From a virus, in IMG/VR virus record IMGVR_UViG_3300042882_000849, positions 1 through 31,002 of that record: a stretch of DNA of 31,002 nt. The stretch is one strand, 5' to 3'. Every line of letters starts with the position of its first letter. The stretch's first letter is position 1. Below the pieces are notes generated by a model. It did no database searches and was not told the origin of the DNA. It was given only the letters and a program-made list of their open reading frames with translations. This document shows, piece after piece, positions 3-20,763 of the stretch. The position numbers and the translations under genes are program-made.

Positions 3-92
3 GCCATCTTAAAAGATGGTGAAAATATAGAAGGCGTGGAAGCAGTACCAGCTTGTGAGAAAATGTATTTGCAATTCGGGGGGAAAGAATGA
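3..92 (+). CDS. C-terminal fragment of an upstream gene (partial)
   Basis: An open frame enters the window at base 3 and stops at 90-92, giving the last 29 residues of a protein that begins outside the window. Its stop overlaps the start of the ERF gene (ATGA), so the two are translationally coupled in one operon. The tail (…GENIEGVEAVPACEKMYLQF…) faintly resembles the C-terminus of siphovirus Gp157-type proteins, which often sit next to ERF genes. That is only a guess from a short stretch. Nothing else can be said without the upstream sequence. Confidence 0.6.
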   Translation, partial: AILKDGENIEGVEAVPACEKMYLQFGGKE

Positions 93-616
93 GCCTTTAC
101 GAAAAACTCCATAAAATCCAGCAAGCTTTAAAAGTTCCTAAAGATGCTGTAAACAAGTTTGGTAATTATAATTACAGAACAGCAGAAAGCATTTTAAGAG
201 CTTTTAAGGATAAAAACGAAGAATTAAATTTAGGATTGAATTTAATTTTGACCGATGAAATTGTTTTTATTGAATCGCCAAGTGAGATAACTAGAATCCC
301 AGACGAAAAAGATTCAAGTAGTAACATTAAAACCAGTGGTAGATTTTACGTTAAGGCAACGGCTATGTTGTCAGATGGTAGCATGTCGACTACTCATAAC
401 AGAATTGAAACTATCACTGCCTCAGCTTATGCTAGAGAAGCAGAGAGTAAAAAGGGAATGGACGAAGCACAGGTAACAGGTGCAGCTTCTTCTTACGCTC
501 GTAAATATGCCTTAAATGGCTTGCTAGCCATAGATGACGGCAAAGACCCAGATTCACAAGAGCCAACGGCAGAAGCAAAGCCAGCGGCAAAAATAAAACC
601 AGTTGTAAATTTCTAA
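89..616 (+). CDS. erf: ERF-family single-strand annealing recombinase
   Basis: ERF-superfamily protein of 175 aa. These proteins bind single-stranded DNA and promote annealing of complementary strands in phage recombination. Family hallmarks are visible: an N-terminal helix (YEKLHKIQQALK), the NYNYRTAESILRAF motif at about residues 26-39, and the highly characteristic block near residues 123-150 that includes GMDEAQVTGAASSYARKYAL followed by NGLLAIDD. The C-terminus (about 155-175) is a low-complexity Glu/Ala/Pro/Lys tail, as is common in the family. The ATG overlaps the upstream stop, and the ribosome site is the G-rich stretch at about 79-84. The SSB-tip protein follows after a 16-nt gap, and a RusA resolvase lies further down the same operon, so a recombination module is likely. 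Confidence 0.93.
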   Translation: MSLYEKLHKIQQALKVPKDAVNKFGNYNYRTAESILRAFKDKNEELNLGLNLILTDEIVFIESPSEITRIPDEKDSSSNIKTSGRFYVKATAMLSDGSMSTTHNRIETITASAYAREAESKKGMDEAQVTGAASSYARKYALNGLLAIDDGKDPDSQEPTAEAKPAAKIKPVVNF

Positions 617-1838: not shown

Positions 1839-2137
1839 AAAAAGTTAGAATAGTCAATCTAGAAATAAACTCAGTCGAGAAGTACAAAGTCAAGAATAAT
1901 AAGCTTCCTGATAATTTTTTGACTGTTTTGATTGCCAAATACAAAGCAGGAGAAATTAAGCCTGTGTATAAAAAAGTTGAAAAACAAGACAGGGTACGCC
2001 ACGGACTAACAGCTACTGATGAGGAATGGCGTTTTCTGAAAAGAGAAGCATTAAAAAAAGGCGTTAAGATCGAAGCAGAGGGAAGGGCTGGATTGGTTAG
2101 GGCTTTGATAAATGGAGATAAAGGCAATGGAAACTAA
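1835..2137 (+). CDS. Small basic unknown protein
   Basis: Unrecognised 100-aa, lysine-rich protein that begins at an ATGA overlap with the upstream gene. The N-terminal half (VRIVNLEINSVEKYKVKNNK) is strand-rich. The second half contains RHGLTATDEEWRFLKREALK, a charged helical stretch similar in flavour to small DNA-binding or ribbon-helix-helix-type proteins, but no defined motif can be claimed. The start is preceded by GGGAACAG (1826-1833), a usable ribosome site. The organisation (4-nt overlap, same strand, same composition) places it in the same polycistronic message as ERF and its neighbours. Confidence 0.7.
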   Translation: MKKVRIVNLEINSVEKYKVKNNKLPDNFLTVLIAKYKAGEIKPVYKKVEKQDRVRHGLTATDEEWRFLKREALKKGVKIEAEGRAGLVRALINGDKGNGN

Positions 2138-2456
2138 CTTTTGGGACAATGGAATCGACTTAATATCTCTAGTTAAAGATATATGGCAGGAGCCAACGCC
2201 ATTAAAACTAGAAATTTTAAGAATTAAAATGAATGAAGAGATAAAAAGAAGGACAAAGGGAAAGACAGAAAATGCTATTAGCACCCTTGAATATTCAAGA
2301 GAAAGACTAAGATTTATCCAGAACGAAGATGAAACCCCTATTCGATTGTTCCTTTATGCTTTTTTCCCTCACAAGTTAATTCAAACAAACAATGGGCATT
2401 TAGAATTATCAAAGAATCCTGAGAATTGGATTAGCTCAAGTGAGGTGAATAAATGA
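2127..2456 (+). CDS. Small unknown protein
   Basis: Unrecognised 109-aa soluble protein. I chose the ATG at 2127 rather than the one at 2112, because GGAG at 2114-2117 sits 9 nt before 2127, an ideal ribosome-site distance, while the 2112 ATG has no such site. Its start therefore overlaps the 3' end of the previous gene by 11 nt. The sequence is helical and charged (LKLEILRIKMNEEIKRRTKGKTENAI) in the first half and aromatic in the second (IRLFLYAFFPHKL). No conserved motif identified. It ends in an ATGA overlap with the next gene. Confidence 0.65.
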   Translation: METNFWDNGIDLISLVKDIWQEPTPLKLEILRIKMNEEIKRRTKGKTENAISTLEYSRERLRFIQNEDETPIRLFLYAFFPHKLIQTNNGHLELSKNPENWISSSEVNK

Positions 2457-2683
2457 TTCACATTAACAGATCACACTTAGAAGATTCTTTAAAACTCGTA
2501 AATGAAATGAGTTTAAAAGCTATAGCGGATGGAGACACCAGTACCGTAATAGGACTTGGAAATATTAAGAGCTATCTTAACTTTTTAAATTCAATCACTA
2601 TATGCCAGTTTGATTTAGAAGCTTTTGAGCAAGCGGAAAAAGAGGCGGTCATCGAAAGGTTAAATAGGTGTTTTAAATTATGA
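2453..2683 (+). CDS. Small unknown helical protein
   Basis: Unrecognised 76-aa protein, probably all-helical (LEDSLKLVNEMSLKAIA; YLNFLNSITICQFDLEAFEQAEKEAVIERL). The start overlaps the upstream stop (ATGA), and GAGGTG at 2443-2448 supplies the ribosome site. The stop overlaps the following ATG in the same way. It has no membrane segment or metal-binding cluster. Context only: part of the recombination operon. Confidence 0.65.
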   Translation: MIHINRSHLEDSLKLVNEMSLKAIADGDTSTVIGLGNIKSYLNFLNSITICQFDLEAFEQAEKEAVIERLNRCFKL

Positions 2684-3030
2684 AAAAAGAAGAAATAAAC
2701 GAAATGGCAATGGACTTAATTAAAGTTAATCCTGAATATACTTATAGATTATGGGATTCCGAGAATAAGCGAATCCTAATAGCGACTGGAGCCAATTTAG
2801 CAGAGTACCCAGAAGAGGTAGCTATTCTTTGCGTAGAAGAGAATCAGCAAATATGCTTATCGAGTTCAGAGTTAATGCAGCCAGAATCTAAAATCTATTT
2901 TCAGTCAAAAATAAAAAAAGCTTTTAACGCAAAAGAAGCTTTAGATGTGATGAATAAACACATAGAAGATTTGAAAGAATTAATCAGGCAGATGGAAATG
3001 TTTGAACAACTAAAAGAATTAAATTTATGA
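2680..3030 (+). CDS. Small unknown protein with C-terminal coiled coil
   Basis: Unrecognised 116-aa protein. The N-terminal ~65 residues look alpha/beta (YTYRLWDSENKRILIATGANL; EEVAILCVEENQQICL). Residues ~78-116 form a continuous amphipathic helix rich in Lys, Glu and Leu (KAFNAKEALDVMNKHIEDL…), likely a coiled coil that mediates oligomerisation. It overlaps both neighbours by 4 nt. Nothing identifies an activity. Confidence 0.65.
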   Translation: MKKEEINEMAMDLIKVNPEYTYRLWDSENKRILIATGANLAEYPEEVAILCVEENQQICLSSSELMQPESKIYFQSKIKKAFNAKEALDVMNKHIEDLKELIRQMEMFEQLKELNL

Positions 3031-3410
3031 AAAAAATAACATATCCCGAGTATATTCCCGATTGGAGTGGTAGCCGTTCTAGGCAGTACCCCGAGGAAAG
3101 GCAACTGGTAAAAGCTAATCCTAAACTGATAAACATGTCGGAAAAAGAGAGGAAGACATTGCAACGCCACCATATCGACTTAGATCGAATGAATGGCAAC
3201 GCTCACAATATAGATATGTTAGACGATGACACTCACAAAGCTGTTCACTGTCAGGAACGTGCTTTATCTTCTGAGCTGATTAAAAAAGGAATAGTTGGCT
3301 ATGATCGCAATGATCCCCATTATCTTGTCAAAGATGTAAATGTTAGGGACATATTGAGAGGGAAAACAAAACCTGAAACAGAAGCAATTGAGCCTGCGGA
3401 GCTTTGGTAA
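3027..3410 (+). CDS. HNH-type endonuclease-like protein
   Basis: Protein of 127 aa with an HNH/ββα-metal signature: tandem histidines in QRHHIDLDRMNGNAHNIDML (H48, H49, N61), then DDDTHKAVH (H70, H74). This spacing follows the HNH pattern HH…N…H…H, in which the first His activates water, the Asn orders the loop and the last His binds the metal. The cysteine knuckles of zinc-stabilised HNH enzymes are absent. Family members in phages nick or cut DNA during packaging, replication or homing. Here the gene lies in the recombination operon, far from the terminase, so a role in DNA processing or recombination is more likely than packaging. It starts at an ATGA overlap, and the next gene's ATG follows its stop directly. 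Confidence 0.65.
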   Translation: MKKITYPEYIPDWSGSRSRQYPEERQLVKANPKLINMSEKERKTLQRHHIDLDRMNGNAHNIDMLDDDTHKAVHCQERALSSELIKKGIVGYDRNDPHYLVKDVNVRDILRGKTKPETEAIEPAELW

Positions 3411-4313
3411 ATGCAAAAAAATAACTTCAAAAAAATAGTCTTAATAGTTTTCGTTTTGTATTTTGCATTAGCAGCTATACTGTTTGCTTTAATTGTGTTA
3501 CCTAGCAGTGGAGCAGTCCATCACTGGTCGGAAGGGAAAAAAGCTTACTGGGCAGGTACGAAGCCAGTGCAATTAGTGATTGACACTGAGTATCCACAAG
3601 AAGTGATTAACAGAGTATTTGAGATACTAGAGCCGTACCCATTCGTTTTAAAAGAAAGAAAGAATATCGATCTAGCCTATGACCCTTTAACGAATGAAAC
3701 AGCCGTAGCTTATGCCAGTATTTACAATAATACAGGAGCTTCATTCTTAGACCCTGCTTACAGATTATCAGATGGCGGGCTTAATCGTGGCTTATGTGCC
3801 GCTGGTACTGCTTCTAATGCAGAGCGTTTAGCGTGGATTCTCGTTCACGAGATATTTCATTCTATCGGGATAGATCATATACAGCCGTTTAAAGCAGGCG
3901 AAGGGTCAGCACAACCAAGAGGATTAATGACCAGCTTTAAACCGAATCAAGGATTACTGCATGATGATATCAGGGCTTTATCCGAAACCCTAAACGAGCG
4001 TTATTTAAGCGACACGGTTACTGTAACTGGTACTATTCCAGTTCTTAAAGGCATGGTATTGAACTTTGTAAATGTAGATAACCCCGAGGATTCAGCCCAA
4101 ATCGTACCTAGTTATTCTTTTGAAGAGAACACCGAGTATGAGATCAAGAGGTTAAAGAAAGGCAGATATTATATAAATGTTACGCCTGCCACAAGCGGAG
4201 CAGGGATTATAAACTTATTTCCTAAACCATCTACTTATTCCAAGATTAGGTATTTTAGGGGAAAGAGAATAATAAACATTGATAAAGACAGGATTTTAAA
4301 CTTAGAGTTTTAA
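3411..4313 (+). CDS. Membrane-anchored metzincin (matrixin-like) metalloprotease
   Basis: Protein of 300 aa. Residues 8-30 form a single strongly hydrophobic segment after a Lys-rich N-terminus, predicting a signal anchor with the rest outside the membrane. Residues 145-156 read VHEIFHSIGIDH, a complete metzincin zinc motif HExxHxxGxxH (H146, E147, H150, G153, H156). RGLMTSF (M173) fits the Met-turn, and LLHDDIRALSETLNERY resembles the closing helix of matrixin catalytic domains. Residues ~200-300 are strand-rich (VTVTGTIPVLKGMVLNFVNV; YYINVTP) and look like a beta-sandwich. Inference: a secreted or envelope-tethered zinc endopeptidase. The substrate is unknown; lysis, superinfection exclusion or host envelope remodelling are possible. 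Such an enzyme inside a phage recombination operon is unusual. The ATG abuts the previous stop. Confidence 0.8.
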   Translation: MQKNNFKKIVLIVFVLYFALAAILFALIVLPSSGAVHHWSEGKKAYWAGTKPVQLVIDTEYPQEVINRVFEILEPYPFVLKERKNIDLAYDPLTNETAVAYASIYNNTGASFLDPAYRLSDGGLNRGLCAAGTASNAERLAWILVHEIFHSIGIDHIQPFKAGEGSAQPRGLMTSFKPNQGLLHDDIRALSETLNERYLSDTVTVTGTIPVLKGMVLNFVNVDNPEDSAQIVPSYSFEENTEYEIKRLKKGRYYINVTPATSGAGIINLFPKPSTYSKIRYFRGKRIINIDKDRILNLEF

Positions 4314-4324
4314 AGGATTTGAAA

Positions 4325-4516
4325 TTGAAAAAACCAAAGCCACCGATTAGAACTTTAGTCCTTCAAACACAGCAGGAACTAGACAGAATTAAAGAGATGT
4401 ATTCAGAGTCAGATTTCATTAGGTGTCTCAAATGGGTAGAATTAAGATTACCCGAAGGAGCTTCACTTACGATTAACGGAAAAGATTATCACCGCTTTAG
4501 ACTGGAGAATAAATGA
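4325..4516 (+). CDS. Small unknown basic protein, TTG start
   Basis: Unrecognised 63-aa, lysine-rich protein. No ATG is available near the 5' end. Two in-frame TTG codons lie at 4319 and 4325. I prefer 4325 because AAAGGA (4312-4317) lies 7 nt upstream of it but only 1 nt from 4319. The N-terminus is Lys/Pro-rich (MKKPKPPIRTL), followed by a helix (QQELDRIKEMYSESDF) and a short beta pair (GASLTINGKDYHRFRL). It overlaps the RusA gene start by 4 nt, so it probably couples to it. Confidence 0.6.
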   Translation: MKKPKPPIRTLVLQTQQELDRIKEMYSESDFIRCLKWVELRLPEGASLTINGKDYHRFRLENK

Positions 4517-4977
4517 TTAAACTAAAAATAGACATGAATCCCGCTGGGAAAAAGAACCCGCTTAAAGGAAGATATGGATTTTACACTCATCCTGAAACAA
4601 AAAAAAGAGAAGATGTTATTCTAGCAGCTTGGAAAACGCAATCTCAAATGAGTTTTGAAAAGGGGATTCCCTTAAAACTAACTTTAATCTTGGGTTATCC
4701 AATTCCAAAAGCCACACCTAAAAAACAAAAAGCTTTAATGCTTGATGGACTGATTAGACCTACTGTAAAGCCAGATGTCGATAACGTCATAAAACTTGTA
4801 TTAGATTCACTAAAAGGTCATGCCTTTTCAGACGATAATCATTTTGTGTCTTTCAAAGAACCCTTTTGCAAGTTTTATGCAGAAACACCCTTTATTGGTG
4901 TGATAATTGAAGAACTTAAAGAAGAAGAGTCTAGATTAGAAGTTGATTTAGCTAAAAGGATTTTTGATGCTAATTGA
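4513..4977 (+). CDS. rusA: RusA-family Holliday-junction resolvase
   Basis: RusA-type endonuclease of 154 aa. RusA enzymes are metal-dependent dimers that cut four-way DNA junctions to resolve recombination or replication intermediates before packaging. The diagnostic block is present: RPTVKPDVDNVIKLVLDSLKG at about 82-102, with D88 and D90 matching conserved acidic active-site residues, followed by FSDDNHFVSF (D107/D108) and a C-terminal strand. The length is slightly above the E. coli enzyme (about 120 aa) through an N-terminal and a C-terminal extension. It completes the recombination set with ERF and the SSB-tip protein. Start at an ATGA overlap with the upstream gene. Confidence 0.92.
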   Translation: MIKLKIDMNPAGKKNPLKGRYGFYTHPETKKREDVILAAWKTQSQMSFEKGIPLKLTLILGYPIPKATPKKQKALMLDGLIRPTVKPDVDNVIKLVLDSLKGHAFSDDNHFVSFKEPFCKFYAETPFIGVIIEELKEEESRLEVDLAKRIFDAN

Positions 4978-5200: not shown

Positions 5201-5478
5201 GAGAACCTAATTTAGACCCAAACGGTTGCACTGAAATATTATTTACTGGTTTTAAATATCTTAAAAACAAACCAACAAATAACAAAGAAGAATGGGTAAA
5301 AGCTCAAATGGCAGACGTAATTATTCTTCAACAAATTTTGCGACAAGTTGAAGGACCTTTTCGTTGGCTTAGCGATAACTACGTCTGGAATGGAAAGGAC
5401 TACAAAACAAGAAATAAAAAAAAATATAATTATTGTAAAATGTTTTTAGAAAGAAAATATGATGAGATTTTTAATTAA
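5197..5478 (+). CDS. Small unknown protein
   Basis: Unrecognised 93-aa soluble protein, ATGA overlap with the upstream gene. It contains a helix with a QMADVIILQQILRQVEG core and an aromatic segment (PFRWLSDNYVWNGKDYKTRNKKKYNY) that is rich in Lys/Tyr and may bind nucleic acid. No catalytic motif or cysteine cluster. Its 3' end overlaps the first of three small membrane-protein genes by 20 nt. Confidence 0.6.
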   Translation: MREPNLDPNGCTEILFTGFKYLKNKPTNNKEEWVKAQMADVIILQQILRQVEGPFRWLSDNYVWNGKDYKTRNKKKYNYCKMFLERKYDEIFN

Positions 5479-5647
5479 CTTTATAAAAGCATTGACTGTT
5501 TTTCTCGTGTATGGCATTGGTACATATTTAGTTTTTGAGCTTTTAAAGACCTATAATGTGTCGCCTTGGGTACCTTTCGGGCTTTTAGTTATTTGCATTT
5601 GTGCTTTAGCCGCTTCTTTTGCTTGCCATGTGGAGGGTAAGAAATGA
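5459..5647 (+). CDS. Small two-helix membrane protein 1
   Basis: Protein of 62 aa (or 61 aa from the second ATG of ATGATG) with two predicted membrane helices at about residues 6-29 and 37-57, joined by a short loop (KTYNVSPW), and a charged C-terminus (HVEGKK). Length and topology fit a class II holin or an antiholin. They also fit any small phage membrane protein. It is the first of three consecutive mini membrane genes upstream of the endolysin, which is suggestive of lysis control. It starts within the previous gene and ends in a 4-nt overlap with the next. Confidence 0.6.
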   Translation: MMRFLINFIKALTVFLVYGIGTYLVFELLKTYNVSPWVPFGLLVICICALAASFACHVEGKK

Positions 5648-6936: not shown

Positions 6937-7353
6937 ATGACGATTTTAAACCGCCAAATAACACCTAACATAAGCCTCTATGAATTGCTTTTTACTCCGA
7001 CTGTGACTATGCGTGAAATCCTGCCATTCATTGAGCAGGCGTGGAGCATAGAAGTAGACAGGAATTTAACTAGAACCGCTACTGCCATCCAAATAGTTAG
7101 AGACTATTATAATAAGCCCGTAATCATCACCAGTGGCTATAGACCCACTGCGTGGGAAATTAAACAAGGTCGCAAAGGTGGAAGCCAGCATACTACAGGT
7201 TTAGCTGTTGATTTTTACGTGGTAGGCGTTCCACTTGCAGAAGTCTATGCTTTTATTAATGCTACTTTTAAAAAAGGCGGTAGAGCTATAAACCCTAAAG
7301 CAAAATTTATTCACTTAGATTTAAGACCAGATTATGCCACTTGGAGTTATTAA
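6937..7353 (+). CDS. Endolysin, peptidase M15-type (D,D/L,D-peptidase)
   Basis: Zinc peptidase of 138 aa in the M15 (Peptidase_M15_3-like) family, which cleaves peptidoglycan peptide cross-bridges. Visible motifs: IITSGYRP (63-70), GGSQHTTGLAVDF (81-93) giving zinc ligands H85 and D92, and FIHLDLRP (124-131) giving H126 with D128 nearby. The length is normal for the single-domain family. There is no signal peptide or cell-wall-binding domain, so a holin would be needed for export. The gene is alone after a structured gap and is followed by a terminator at 7401-7430. Unlike the T7 plan, this lysis enzyme lies on the strand opposite to the virion genes. Confidence 0.88.
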   Translation: MTILNRQITPNISLYELLFTPTVTMREILPFIEQAWSIEVDRNLTRTATAIQIVRDYYNKPVIITSGYRPTAWEIKQGRKGGSQHTTGLAVDFYVVGVPLAEVYAFINATFKKGGRAINPKAKFIHLDLRPDYATWSY

Positions 7354-7545: not shown

Positions 7546-7632
7546 TGGTGGGCAGAGCTGGATTTGAACCAGCGTAGACAAAAAGCCAATAGATTTACAG
7601 TCTATCTCCATTAACCACTCGGACACCTGCCC
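7546..7632 (-). tRNA. tRNA-Tyr (anticodon GUA)
   Basis: Complete type II tRNA on the - strand, 87 nt including an encoded CCA. Acceptor GGGCAGG/TCTGCCC with discriminator A; D-stem TCC/GGA; anticodon stem ATAGA/TCTAT with loop CTGTAAA giving anticodon GUA; long variable arm; T-arm GCTGG-TTCAAAT-CCAGC. The folding is canonical. The gene probably supplements host tyrosine decoding during infection. It is preceded by its own extended -10 promoter and a 47-nt leader. Confidence 0.95.
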
Positions 7633-16045: not shown

Positions 16046-17929
16046 TTATAATCCTCCCAAGACACAACGTGCCGCTTCTGCCATACCTTGATATTTAGAA
16101 TCAGTCTTGAGAATATCTTGGTATTCGGCACTGCTTTCTATTTCAGCTTTAAACGCTGCCAGCTCTTCCTCTGGGATGTTCATATCTTTCAAAATGCCGT
16201 CTAAATCTTTATTCTCTAAACTGCTTACAACCTTCTGCATCTCTTCTGTTTCTTTGCCTAGCTGTGCTACTGCTTCATTAAAGGTCTCGTCTGCCTGCTT
16301 GAAAGTGCCTTTTAAAATTCCTTGTGCTTCTTCTAATGATGATGAATTTAAGATTTGCCTTCCGTGTAACTGTTTAGTGTAAGCTGCTTTTAGCTCATCA
16401 TCTGTTAATTTAAGCAAATCCTGAAAGTTGAAATTGTTTTCCACTGGGTCAATTAGCCTAAAAAGCTTTGCTATATTGACTTGTGTCTTCCTGTGCATTT
16501 TTAAAAAATTAGAAAGAGTTTTTATTTTTTTTGTTCTAACATTGTTTGCTGCAAGTTTGTACTCTTTTAAAAACTCATCAAAAGTTAAATCACTAACTTC
16601 CCTTGCCGTAACAGGAATAAAATCTTCACCAGTCCTAACCGCTTTAGTAAAGCCTTCCTCCGCTGTTTCTCTTAATACTGCTTGAATAATCCTGTTAAAT
16701 TCTTGATTTCTAGTTGCATTAATTGCGTTTTTTTCGTCTAAAGCTTCGTCTATTTTCTTTTGGATAATCTCTACAACTCTAGGGTTGTCTGCGTTTAAGG
16801 CTTTTTGCGTTTCAAGATTTGATATTTTAGTTTCTATATCATCAAGATATTGAACAAATGCCTGAGACTCTACGCCTGCTTGTTGTTTCAAGTAAGCTTT
16901 AAACTTTAAAGTGTTTGCGACTTTTTGCAATTTAACATCATCAAGCTTATCTAATTCAGCCTTTGAAATAATCCCGTCTAGATAACCACTTTCAAAAAGA
17001 TTATCCATCTTGCTTCTTAGAGCTGTTCCATAATCAACCCTCAACGCTGCATTAACTGTTTTCGGGTCAGTGATTACGCCTGAATTAATATCAGACATCA
17101 TCTTAGACATAATAGAAGCTTGCCCGTCTCTTGTTATAACTCCCGACTCGACTAAATCGTCTAAAGCCGTTTCAAAGTTTTTAACAGTGCTTGCTATATC
17201 ATCGGCTTGCTTCCCAAGAAAAAAACCACCTAATCCACCGCCTGCACTACCTAAAGCAATACTCGCTAAACCCCATAGAATGTCATAATCATAGCCGTTT
17301 CTATCTGCTTGAGCTTTAATCCCTACCTGTAAAAGGGTTTCATAAGCACCTTCACCAACTGCACCCCTAACGATTCCAGTCGTTGCACCTGAACCAAAAG
17401 CAAAAGGACTAATTAAAGCCGCCTCTATCGCCTCCCCTGCTGCACCATATTTAGCAAGCTGTGCCGCTTTTATTAAGAATGGAGCCGCCCCACTAACCGC
17501 AGCAAAACCAAAGCCTGCCTCGGCTATCGCTGGAAGATTACCAGCTAATCCCTGTAAAAAGTATTCTAAGCCCTTATTATCCTGTTCTGCTTGGCTTAAA
17601 ATCTCTGATCTTGCTTCGTAATTAACGTGCTTGTTATATCTTAATTTAGCCACTGATTCGGGCATTGCTTCATTAAAAGATAACTTCCCTTCTACGCCAT
17701 AAATCTTATTTGCTTCATCTGCGGTAAGCATTTTGTCATCTCTGCCTAAAGCTTGTAAACCCCTTAAAGCTGCCTCTTCTGCTGTTTGTAAACCCCAAGC
17801 GATACCCGTGTTTGTTTCAAAACCCTGCTGTATTCTTTGTTCTGTTTCAACCCCTCCCCCAATCGAAAGAAGGCTAAAATCTTCTTGGACTGGGGTATCT
17901 TGGAATGTAGCTAAATTAATATCTACCAC
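16046..17929 (-). CDS. Internal virion protein, membrane-active and coiled-coil
   Basis: Protein of 627 aa. Residues about 120-240 form a Gly/Ala-rich hydrophobic region (FGFAAVSGAAPFLIKAAQ; LWGLASIALGSAGGGLGGFF), which may insert in or traverse the host membrane. From about 250 onward it is long charged helices with heptad character (NLETQKALNADNPRVVEIIQ; KKIDEALDEKNAINATRN). It overlaps the upstream gene by 7 nt and sits between the GH24-bearing protein and the gp16-position protein. Most likely part of the ejected internal core or ejectosome. No sequence-level identification beyond that. Confidence 0.6.
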   Translation of the reverse strand: MVDINLATFQDTPVQEDFSLLSIGGGVETEQRIQQGFETNTGIAWGLQTAEEAALRGLQALGRDDKMLTADEANKIYGVEGKLSFNEAMPESVAKLRYNKHVNYEARSEILSQAEQDNKGLEYFLQGLAGNLPAIAEAGFGFAAVSGAAPFLIKAAQLAKYGAAGEAIEAALISPFAFGSGATTGIVRGAVGEGAYETLLQVGIKAQADRNGYDYDILWGLASIALGSAGGGLGGFFLGKQADDIASTVKNFETALDDLVESGVITRDGQASIMSKMMSDINSGVITDPKTVNAALRVDYGTALRSKMDNLFESGYLDGIISKAELDKLDDVKLQKVANTLKFKAYLKQQAGVESQAFVQYLDDIETKISNLETQKALNADNPRVVEIIQKKIDEALDEKNAINATRNQEFNRIIQAVLRETAEEGFTKAVRTGEDFIPVTAREVSDLTFDEFLKEYKLAANNVRTKKIKTLSNFLKMHRKTQVNIAKLFRLIDPVENNFNFQDLLKLTDDELKAAYTKQLHGRQILNSSSLEEAQGILKGTFKQADETFNEAVAQLGKETEEMQKVVSSLENKDLDGILKDMNIPEEELAAFKAEIESSAEYQDILKTDSKYQGMAEAARCVLGGL

Positions 17930-20763
17930 CCTTGAAACATCTCCAATACTTTAACTGTTGTTTTGTCTATCTTAGGCGGCGGAGTATAAGACCCTGCTGT
18001 CTTCGCATCAACTTCAAAATATTTAAAATTCCCACTTTCACGCCCGATAGGTAAAGGATAAGCTTTAGTTACGCTTAGTCCAGGTATCATATAATTGACG
18101 TAAAGCCTAGCCCTGCCAGTGTTCCCTACTGGTCTAAAAGTTCCCTTATCACGAATAGCCGTTTCAATTACACGGCTTGTAACTTCTTCTCTTAGGTTTA
18201 CTAGCTTTTCTTGTTCAGGAGTTAGCTTAACCACCGCATCTAATTCTTTAGCTCCCTCTGCGTATAAGTAAGACTCTTTACTTCTCCTTGCAATCAAAAC
18301 CGCATCTTGCCTAGTTTGTCCGCCTCTTGTGGATTTATCGTATGTTCTAAAAAGCTTTTCGGCTTCTGCATCATTTCCCCTGATAACGGCTGATCTCAAA
18401 CTAGGCATTCCACCTTCGCCATGATTATAAATAAAACTAACTAATGCATCATATTGTTTTTGGCTTAAGCCTTTGCCTGTCCTAGATATTCTTTCATCTT
18501 GAATGCGATCTACTGCTGCTGTTCTACCTTTGATATCTTCTCTAAACCTTCTCTCGGCTTCTTCTGCCGTGATAACCTCTCCCTCAAAAGATTTCGTACC
18601 AAAACCAATACTAAAACGCCCGTCTGTATCTGGGTAAGCTTTAAGCTCTGGTTTACCTTTAACCGTTTCTAAATTTTTTAAAAAGCTCATTCCTGTATCG
18701 CTTAATGTTTTTGGCTTAAAAGAATCAGCTACCCCAATATTTTCTAAATCAAGATTATCTGTATTAATCCCTCTTTTTGTTGCCTCTAATTTTAAATTCT
18801 TCATTACGTCATCTTTAATGAACTTTCCAAAGCCGCCAAATTCATCACCTCTTTGAGAAGCCGTGTGAATCCCCTCCCAAACCTTTTTACCAAAAAGATT
18901 ACTAAGAGCATAAGAAGTTTGTTTGTTTTTATCCCCTAAAAAAGATAAATAGCCTTCGCTTGCATATTCTTTCTGTATCGTAACTGAATTGGAGCCTTTG
19001 TTTTGTGTAACGTATTTATCCTGTATCGTTAATCGCATAGCTTCGGCTACTGCTTCGCTTGCTTTCCCTTTCATGCTTGGGTTAAGCTCGGCTATTTGAT
19101 ACGCTAATCCTCGCACTATATCCTTATTTGCTACAATCCAGTTACCAGCACCGCCTGCTAAATCAGCTTGCTTTTCAAAACCTAAAACATAAGGCTTTAT
19201 AACCTTTTCAATCGCCTTATTAACTTCTTCTTTTTTTAAACTGCTGTTATCTGCACTGATAGGCGTTTTAAGATACTTCATTAAAGTACCACGCTTAAGA
19301 TCATTGTCTCCGTACCAAAGTAGAGCTAAAGCCGATCTATCGCCTGTTTTTTCTGTCTGCTTTATAACATCTTTAGAAATTTCATTGATAATAATATCCA
19401 TTGGGGTAGTATCATCTTTTAACAAATCAGTCTTAATATTCCAACTTTCAAGTCCTTTAATGGCTCTGCCAACTTCATCAGGAGAACCATTAACTAAGGT
19501 GCTAATTAATCTTGCTTTTTCAGCCGCAGGAATAGGCATCAATTTATTAGCTGGGGTCATCATCCCAAACTTAGTAACTAAACCTCTAAAGAATTTTTCT
19601 TTATCTCCCTCTTGGTAAGCTTGCTGCAATATTGCATCATTAGCTATTGCTGTTCCTGCTGGGTCTTCTTTGATGGCTTTAATCATGGCCGTGCCGCCTT
19701 GCTGAATAGCACTTGCTGCTTCTAAAAGCTTTTGTGCTTCTTCGTAATTACCAGCACTTGAAGCCGTCTCCGCTCTTCTGTTTAAATCCGTTACAGTGTC
19801 CGATACTGAACCAATATCGCCATTTAAAACAGAGGTAGCCGCTTTGCCTTTTTCTAAAGCAATGTTATATTCTCTTTGGATTTCTTCTTTCTGCTCTGCT
19901 GTCTTGCCAAGTTTTAAAGCTCTATTTAACAGATTAGGGTCTTCGACTGCTTCGCCCTTCGCTGCTAAATCAAGATATGACTTAAATCTCTTTTCAATTA
20001 CTCCGTCATTGTAAGCCTTAAGCTGGTTTAGAGCCGTTATCTTCTTAGCACTAACCTGATCTATAAGCCTTTGCCTAAGCTCAGTGCTGCCAATAAATTC
20101 AGGACTATTAATAGTATCTCCAAGTTCATCAAATCTTTTAGCGACTGTTTCCTCGTCAATATCCCCAGTAACATAATCATTTTGTATTTTTCTTGTAATG
20201 CCATCAACACCCGATAAAACAAATTTATCTTTAACTTGCTGTACTGCTTTAATTCGTTCCTCTACTGGTAAACCTGAATATGAAGCAGTCATTCTACCCA
20301 CTTGAGCATCAACCTCTGCAAGAGTAGCTGCTATATCGCCTGTATTCTCTGCTATGTTTGACACATAGCCAGAGCTTACAGATTCAATATCCATCGCATC
20401 CTGTTTAATTCTTACTCGCTTGGCTTCCGTCTCCCATAGAGCTGACTTGCTCATATAGTTGCCCTTGTCTTTTGTTGCAAGAGCTTCAAATTTTAACCTT
20501 ACGTTTTTATTCTTAATGTTGTTTAAATATTGACTTTTAAGAGTATCAAAACTTTGGCTTTGCCTTTGAACAAAATTACCATCCAAAGGATCTTCTTCTT
20601 GAGCTTTTGCCCATGATTGTTCATAGGCTACATTCAATTCATTAGATAATTTAACAGCTTCAATGCCCTGCTCCATCTCGACACGCCTATCAACCATCGC
20701 ACCGATTCTATCTATACTATCGCTTAAGCCTTCTGCCGCTCCACCAAAAAAAGCATATCCCAT
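17923..20763 (-). CDS. Large internal virion protein with GH24 lysozyme domain
   Basis: Protein of 946 aa in the gp15 position. Residues ~1-680 are mainly helical and coiled-coil, suited to an internal-core protein. Residues ~690-840 are a GH24 (T4-type) lysozyme domain: FLKNLETVKG with E699, LKAYPDTDGRFSIGFGT (D712, S718), AEEAERRFREDI, LSQKQYDALVSFIYNHGEGG, and a closing TRQDAVLIARRSKESYLY. Such a virion-associated muralytic domain would open peptidoglycan during DNA entry. In T7 the wall-degrading domain sits at the N-terminus of gp16, so its location here is different. The Glu-Asp gap is 12 residues rather than the 8 of T4 lysozyme. Residues ~845-946 form a C-terminal domain of unknown role. 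Confidence 0.8.
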   Translation of the reverse strand: MGYAFFGGAAEGLSDSIDRIGAMVDRRVEMEQGIEAVKLSNELNVAYEQSWAKAQEEDPLDGNFVQRQSQSFDTLKSQYLNNIKNKNVRLKFEALATKDKGNYMSKSALWETEAKRVRIKQDAMDIESVSSGYVSNIAENTGDIAATLAEVDAQVGRMTASYSGLPVEERIKAVQQVKDKFVLSGVDGITRKIQNDYVTGDIDEETVAKRFDELGDTINSPEFIGSTELRQRLIDQVSAKKITALNQLKAYNDGVIEKRFKSYLDLAAKGEAVEDPNLLNRALKLGKTAEQKEEIQREYNIALEKGKAATSVLNGDIGSVSDTVTDLNRRAETASSAGNYEEAQKLLEAASAIQQGGTAMIKAIKEDPAGTAIANDAILQQAYQEGDKEKFFRGLVTKFGMMTPANKLMPIPAAEKARLISTLVNGSPDEVGRAIKGLESWNIKTDLLKDDTTPMDIIINEISKDVIKQTEKTGDRSALALLWYGDNDLKRGTLMKYLKTPISADNSSLKKEEVNKAIEKVIKPYVLGFEKQADLAGGAGNWIVANKDIVRGLAYQIAELNPSMKGKASEAVAEAMRLTIQDKYVTQNKGSNSVTIQKEYASEGYLSFLGDKNKQTSYALSNLFGKKVWEGIHTASQRGDEFGGFGKFIKDDVMKNLKLEATKRGINTDNLDLENIGVADSFKPKTLSDTGMSFLKNLETVKGKPELKAYPDTDGRFSIGFGTKSFEGEVITAEEAERRFREDIKGRTAAVDRIQDERISRTGKGLSQKQYDALVSFIYNHGEGGMPSLRSAVIRGNDAEAEKLFRTYDKSTRGGQTRQDAVLIARRSKESYLYAEGAKELDAVVKLTPEQEKLVNLREEVTSRVIETAIRDKGTFRPVGNTGRARLYVNYMIPGLSVTKAYPLPIGRESGNFKYFEVDAKTAGSYTPPPKIDKTTVKVLEMFQGW

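Follow-up and report, generated by a model that had tools for sequence, protein, structure and literature searches.

A putative exported metzincin-type protease gene with exchangeable leaders in a podovirus-like phage

In this work, a gene of a podovirus-like phage was compared with its relatives in eight other viral records, and its product is probably a zinc endopeptidase of the metzincin type. An export-type leader was recognized in the sequences of all relatives. The comparisons indicate that leader and protease body are exchanged separately, and that the gene is an accessory one which moves between phages. We hypothesize, giving it about an even chance, that the gene encodes an exported metzincin-type accessory protease, which would trim proteins of the host envelope during phage multiplication.

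Setting of the gene and possible link to lysis

The window (the whole stretch of DNA analyzed) is a 31-kb virus record. A podovirus-like module of virion genes occupies the minus strand and comprises terminase, head-tail connector, major head protein, several tail proteins and a virion protein with a lysozyme-like stretch. The connector and capsid share about 23-32% identity with their counterparts in phages that include those of Pelagibacter and Alteromonas, and capsid relatives were found in 19 of the 289 genomes of the class of MAG G012, the one class searched. A 946-aa protein of this module (17923-20763, minus strand) contains a lysozyme-like stretch (phrog_7, residues 667-844) and may be ejected in order to breach the cell wall. 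The plus strand carries ERF, an HNH-like gene, the protease, RusA, small membrane proteins, DUF1353 and an M15 peptidase (Table 1), and a tRNA-Tyr gene (7546-7632, minus strand) separates the M15 peptidase from the next gene on the minus strand. The gene that follows the protease (4319-4516) begins with a charged stretch. The original prediction described this block as a recombination operon. The ERF, HNH and RusA genes do share the strand of the protease, but so does the M15 peptidase, which is also found in the same-strand block of L001, L002 and L008. Moreover, a GH24 lysozyme is encoded in the block of seven of the eight relatives (L001-L004, L006, L008, L009), and therefore the block is not purely a recombination operon.

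Table 1. Positions of the protease gene, its parts and its neighbours in the window, and of two archaeal ORFs compared with it.
Feature	Position	Strand	Remarks
ERF single-strand annealing protein	89..616	+	same block as protease
HNH endonuclease-like gene	3027..3410	+	ends at the base preceding the protease start codon; absent here in L001/L002
Metzincin-type protease gene	3411..4313	+	ATG start, 300 aa
Leader, residues 1-35, export signal with long hydrophobic core	3411..3515	+	
Catalytic domain, residues 36-200	3516..4010	+	
Zinc motif HEIFHSIGIDH, residues 146-156	3846..3878	+	
Met-turn GLM, residues 171-173	3921..3929	+	M173 unchanged across the eight-protein alignment
Closing-helix segment HDDIRALSETLNERY, residues 184-198	3960..4004	+	helix in low-confidence model
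C-terminal domain, residues 201-300, probably beta-sandwich	4011..4310	+	low-confidence model, sub-threshold Pfam matches
RusA-like Holliday junction resolvase	4513..4977	+	same block as protease
Small two-TM protein, possible holin	5459..5647	+	hydropathy only; same block
M15 peptidase (endolysin-type)	6937..7353	+	same block
Pacearchaeota metzincin ORF	L022:1250-2161	-	
Pacearchaeota metzincin ORF	L023:84-992	+	

The lysozyme and M15 peptidase genes of these blocks bear on a second possible role, a lysis aid, in which late cutting of envelope proteins would speed disruption by the lysozyme or M15 peptidase together with a holin. This role has a precedent in Mtz of Listeria (LMRG_00713), a phage-associated protein that carries HExxHxxGxxH/D as well as a Met-turn, is exported and acts outside the membrane. 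Its gene is followed by that of Tim, a TIMP-like lipoprotein which Mtz cleaves, the pair is located in prophages of Gram-positive hosts near holin-lysin genes, and Mtz-Tim was reported to sensitise cells to phage lysis (PMC8235301). Compared by features, the window protein is likewise a phage-associated protein of the metzincin type, with export predicted from its sequence. However, Mtz has a Sec/SPI signal whereas the leader of the window family alternates between two types, and the window phage is podovirus-like. The lysozyme in the relatives' blocks fits a lysis role equally well as envelope trimming. On the other hand, the window protease is directly flanked by the HNH gene, RusA and small ORFs. 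Furthermore, the L005 gene is located between nrdB and nrdA, with no window-type lysis genes within the ~10.8 kb examined, and no TIMP-like or lipoprotein partner was consistently present downstream of the protease in the relatives, where inspection by eye gave variable genes, none with a lipobox. We consider the lysis aid rather unlikely, and tentatively favour envelope trimming during replication over lysis, at slightly less than an even chance.

Probable assignment to the metzincins

The 300-aa ORF at 3411-4313, the HExxHxxGxxH motif, the Met-turn and the N-terminal hydrophobic segment were all found as originally predicted. The HE..H..G..[HD] motif occurs only once in the window (14,617 aa of stop-to-stop frames of at least 60 aa), residue shuffling within these frames gives 0.001 such motifs expected per window, and the motif arises in 5e-6 of the shuffles of the window protein itself. 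M173 is located 17 residues past H156, the third zinc ligand, and HDDIRALSETLNERY comes directly after GLM (171-173). In the alignment of eight proteins, H146, E147, H150, H156 and M173 are invariant, with the caveat that the third His of L006 is placed one residue early, so the exact HExxHxxGxxH is kept in seven of them. The original prediction had been staked on the zinc triad in homologues; apart from the shifted spacing in L006, the triad and the Met-turn are kept down to 56% identity and also in the second protease family described below (family B). The dN/dS values were mostly 0.03-0.3 (0.05-0.30 for the catalytic part and 0.03-0.09 for the C-terminal part, where dS was estimable), and purifying selection is indicated for both domains.

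The extended zinc motif and the Met-turn methionine, both present as judged by the residues, are features of the metzincin superfamily (MEROPS clan MA(M)). The assignment to the metzincin type is accepted because of motif and conservation, and it does not extend to membership in the matrixin family. With matrixins (PF00413/MEROPS M10) the window protein shares HExxHxxGxxH, the Met-turn and a closing segment resembling DDIxxIQ..Y, and they gave the best sub-threshold Pfam match. However, the matrixin profile scored only 13.4-17.1 bits (window 14.8, L009 17.1), under the cut-off of 24. Among the families weakly matched in Pfam by the catalytic parts are the metzincin families M10, M66 and M12B; the match of L009 to M10 (E 0.0053) extends through the segment corresponding to residues 184-198 of the window protein. 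By comparing the family with bacterial matrixins in hhalign, a score of 38.5 was obtained, against 34.1 +/- 3.2 for 200 controls in which the alignment columns were shuffled and the zinc motif was held fixed. The real score was reached by 17 of the 200, which means that the likeness beyond the 11-residue motif is not above shuffles. Searches including PDB sequences and Pfam gave no significant match to a family with a solved structure or a curated profile. A cysteine-switch propeptide is a feature of animal matrixins. It is absent from the window protein, in which 17 residues separate the leader from the first strand (as positioned in a low-confidence model) and the sole Cys is residue 129, inside the catalytic domain.

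Structure prediction, proposed earlier as a check, gave a partial answer. The order of elements fits the zincin fold in both AF2 models, built from 6 and 8 sequences, but their confidence is low (pLDDT 40 and 43, respectively), and Foldseek with the low-confidence model returned no metzincin and nothing credible among the matches listed. The same applies to the beta-rich C-terminal domain of the original prediction: strands are predicted in the C-terminal half, though by a low-confidence model, and the sub-threshold Pfam matches of this domain are Ig_J and, in L009, CarboxypepD_reg. The YbeY RNase was considered for the sub-threshold matches and rejected, because YbeY would be cytoplasmic and all relatives carry export-type leaders.

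It is very unlikely that HExxHxxGxxH is fortuitous or belongs to a catalytically dead zinc-binding domain. The poor structure models, the matrixin similarity within the range of motif-kept shuffles and the broken spacing in L006 would agree with such a reading, but the tiny expected number of motifs per window, the low dN/dS and the retention of triad and Met-turn at 56% identity and into family B argue against it.

Outside viruses, the Pacearchaeota MAG proteins L022 and L023 have a similar layout, i.e. an N-terminal hydrophobic segment, a metzincin domain (HE[IV]FHxLGFDH) and then a C-terminal domain. They differ in being cellular archaeal (DPANN) proteins, of which mainly the zinc motif and the Met-turn align well with the window protein, and L022 differs also in its clear Astacin/Matrixin match and C-terminal CARDB domain.

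Relatives and distribution

The proposed search for homologues in other phages, with comparison of their neighbours, led to the eight IMG/VR records, each with one copy. Six of them belong with the window protein to family A, at 80-88% identity (L001-L005) and 56% identity (L009). The other two, L006 and L008, form family B, which is ~25% identical to family A; a profile comparison of the families gave E 1.7e-10, a value from that single comparison and partly owed to a shared leader. Relatives of neither family were found by tblastn in 50,697 phage records, and none was found in the genome contigs scanned with the family alignment. Of the eight loci that a motif scan of genome contigs yielded, none could be shown to be related. 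In the class to which the alphaproteobacterial MAG G012 belongs, 385 genomes were searched by profile, without a positive control, and no relative was found.

The connector protein of the window is present in the L003 record (98%) and was not found in the other seven, some of which are short fragments and four of which exceed 40 kb. Terminase and portal genes were found in three of those seven (G005, G007, G008) and are different from those of the window. Moreover, the protease gene of L005 (G005) is inserted between nrdB and an intein-bearing nrdA. These differences and this location are the grounds for regarding the gene as accessory. In L005:3117-9487, the nrdA intein is accompanied by a LAGLIDADG domain, and an S4-domain protein is encoded directly upstream. 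A different metzincin ORF adjoins nrdB in L069. In L003, the homologue of the HNH-like gene of the window (3027-3410) is located after the protease, not before it.

The family B protein of L006 (5001-6005) reads HEWGH-GYLGHED, with its third zinc His one residue early, while L008 has a perfect HEDGHLDGLGH. The leader and first half of these two proteins are diverged and the second half is nearly identical in protein. The break point is at the zinc motif, which is shorter by one residue in L006. The L006 protein may have arisen by recombination, with a site that is altered or dead.

Leader types and their exchange

Hydropathy gives a single N-terminal hydrophobic segment in the window protein (residues 4-38). 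This long type of leader is also found in L009, where it has diverged, and in L006, whereas L001-L005 (MKKIT..LNQAQA↓A) and L008 have a short leader of the signal-peptide type. Both leaders are thus carried by family A and by family B, and all four combinations exist. The membrane anchor of the original prediction was upheld as a hydrophobic segment but not as a family trait, because L001-L005, whose short signal peptide is probably cleavable, carry that type instead of the long hydrophobic one. A possible signal-peptidase site is present even at the end of the long core (SSGA↓V in the window; SSGA or SSQA among the window, L006 and L009), and the window leader may be either an uncleaved anchor or cut at SSGA↓V.

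Positions 3411-3514 of the window (104 nt) are 97% identical to L006 5001-5101, and BLAST found no match of L006 to the window upstream of the leader (2119 to 3411) or downstream of it to 4967. The window departs from L002 in the HNH gene, in the leader and in the body, which is 90% identical, while the block is otherwise ~97% identical. The leader sharing across families, the break between L006 and L008 and the L002 comparison together point to separate exchange of leader and body. The exchange point is at the putative signal-peptidase site, which suggests that the two leaders are equivalent export signals. In the window, leader replacement coincides with the arrival of the HNH gene directly upstream, and therefore the exchange may be driven by co-conversion beside a homing-type endonuclease. 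Within the body, window positions 3591-3770 (codons 61-120) have 100% nucleotide identity to L002, the body elsewhere being 77-90% identical, and this stretch appears to be a recent local exchange. Pattern scans of the viral collection found the long TM leader only in L006 besides the window, and the signal-peptide leader only in L001-L005 (family A) and L008 (family B). A general leader cassette was rejected, since neither leader was found on other proteins in the scanned viral collection.

The location of the protease and its target seem to be combined in different ways in these phages. It is doubtful, though conceivable, that the slot is a modular system in which the leader cassette would set the location (tethered or free) and the protease body the substrate, the two being swapped separately. 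The accessory distribution, the leader and body exchange and the two interchangeable families in one slot also form the pattern of an arms race, as would be expected of superinfection exclusion, in which an exported protease would destroy a receptor or secretion component and block the entry of competing phages. However, the variation of family A is under purifying and not diversifying selection, and superinfection exclusion is an unlikely role.

Exported metzincin-like ORFs in viral contigs

The original prediction found such a protease unexpected in a phage, which was too strong. In IMG/VR viral contigs, some of which are possibly misclassified as viral, the motif HExGHxxGLxH was found in at least 120 stretches, corresponding to at least 96 ORFs of at least 120 aa. 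Among the matches listed, 77 ORFs are complete, and simple rules assign a leader of the lipobox, TM or signal-peptide type to 42 of the 77. Their neighbours include genes for baseplate (L058), endolysin (L097), RNA ligase/tail fiber attachment (L099) and nrdB (L069). From these counts and neighbours, phage-borne exported metzincins do not appear to be rare. The ORFs of L058, L075, L093, L097 and L099 are likewise small and combine a lipobox or TM leader with HExGHxxGLxH, but they belong to other sequence families with only weak profile matches to the window family. In the literature, one studied case of a phage-associated metzincin was found, the Listeria Mtz-Tim system (PMC8235301).

Proposed role

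In the envelope-trimming role that we favour, the gene would be an accessory one within the non-structural block, and its expression would probably fall in the replication phase. The leader would take the protease through the Sec pathway, placing the catalytic domain and the C-terminal beta-sandwich outside the cytoplasmic membrane. An uncut leader would tether the protease there, whereas cutting of the leader would leave it free in the periplasm. Zinc would be held by H146, H150 and H156, with E147 as the general base, and host envelope proteins would be trimmed as the phage multiplies. Recombination in the block would swap the leader and the protease body, and thereby change the location and probably the substrate.

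Phage proteases which act on the host envelope have hardly been studied, the Listeria work being the one study found. The family described here is a natural experiment, with one protease under two leaders and one leader on two proteases, and these combinations make the effect of tethering and the protease target directly testable. Since the survey suggests that exported metzincin-like genes are common in phages, a function established for this family may apply more widely.
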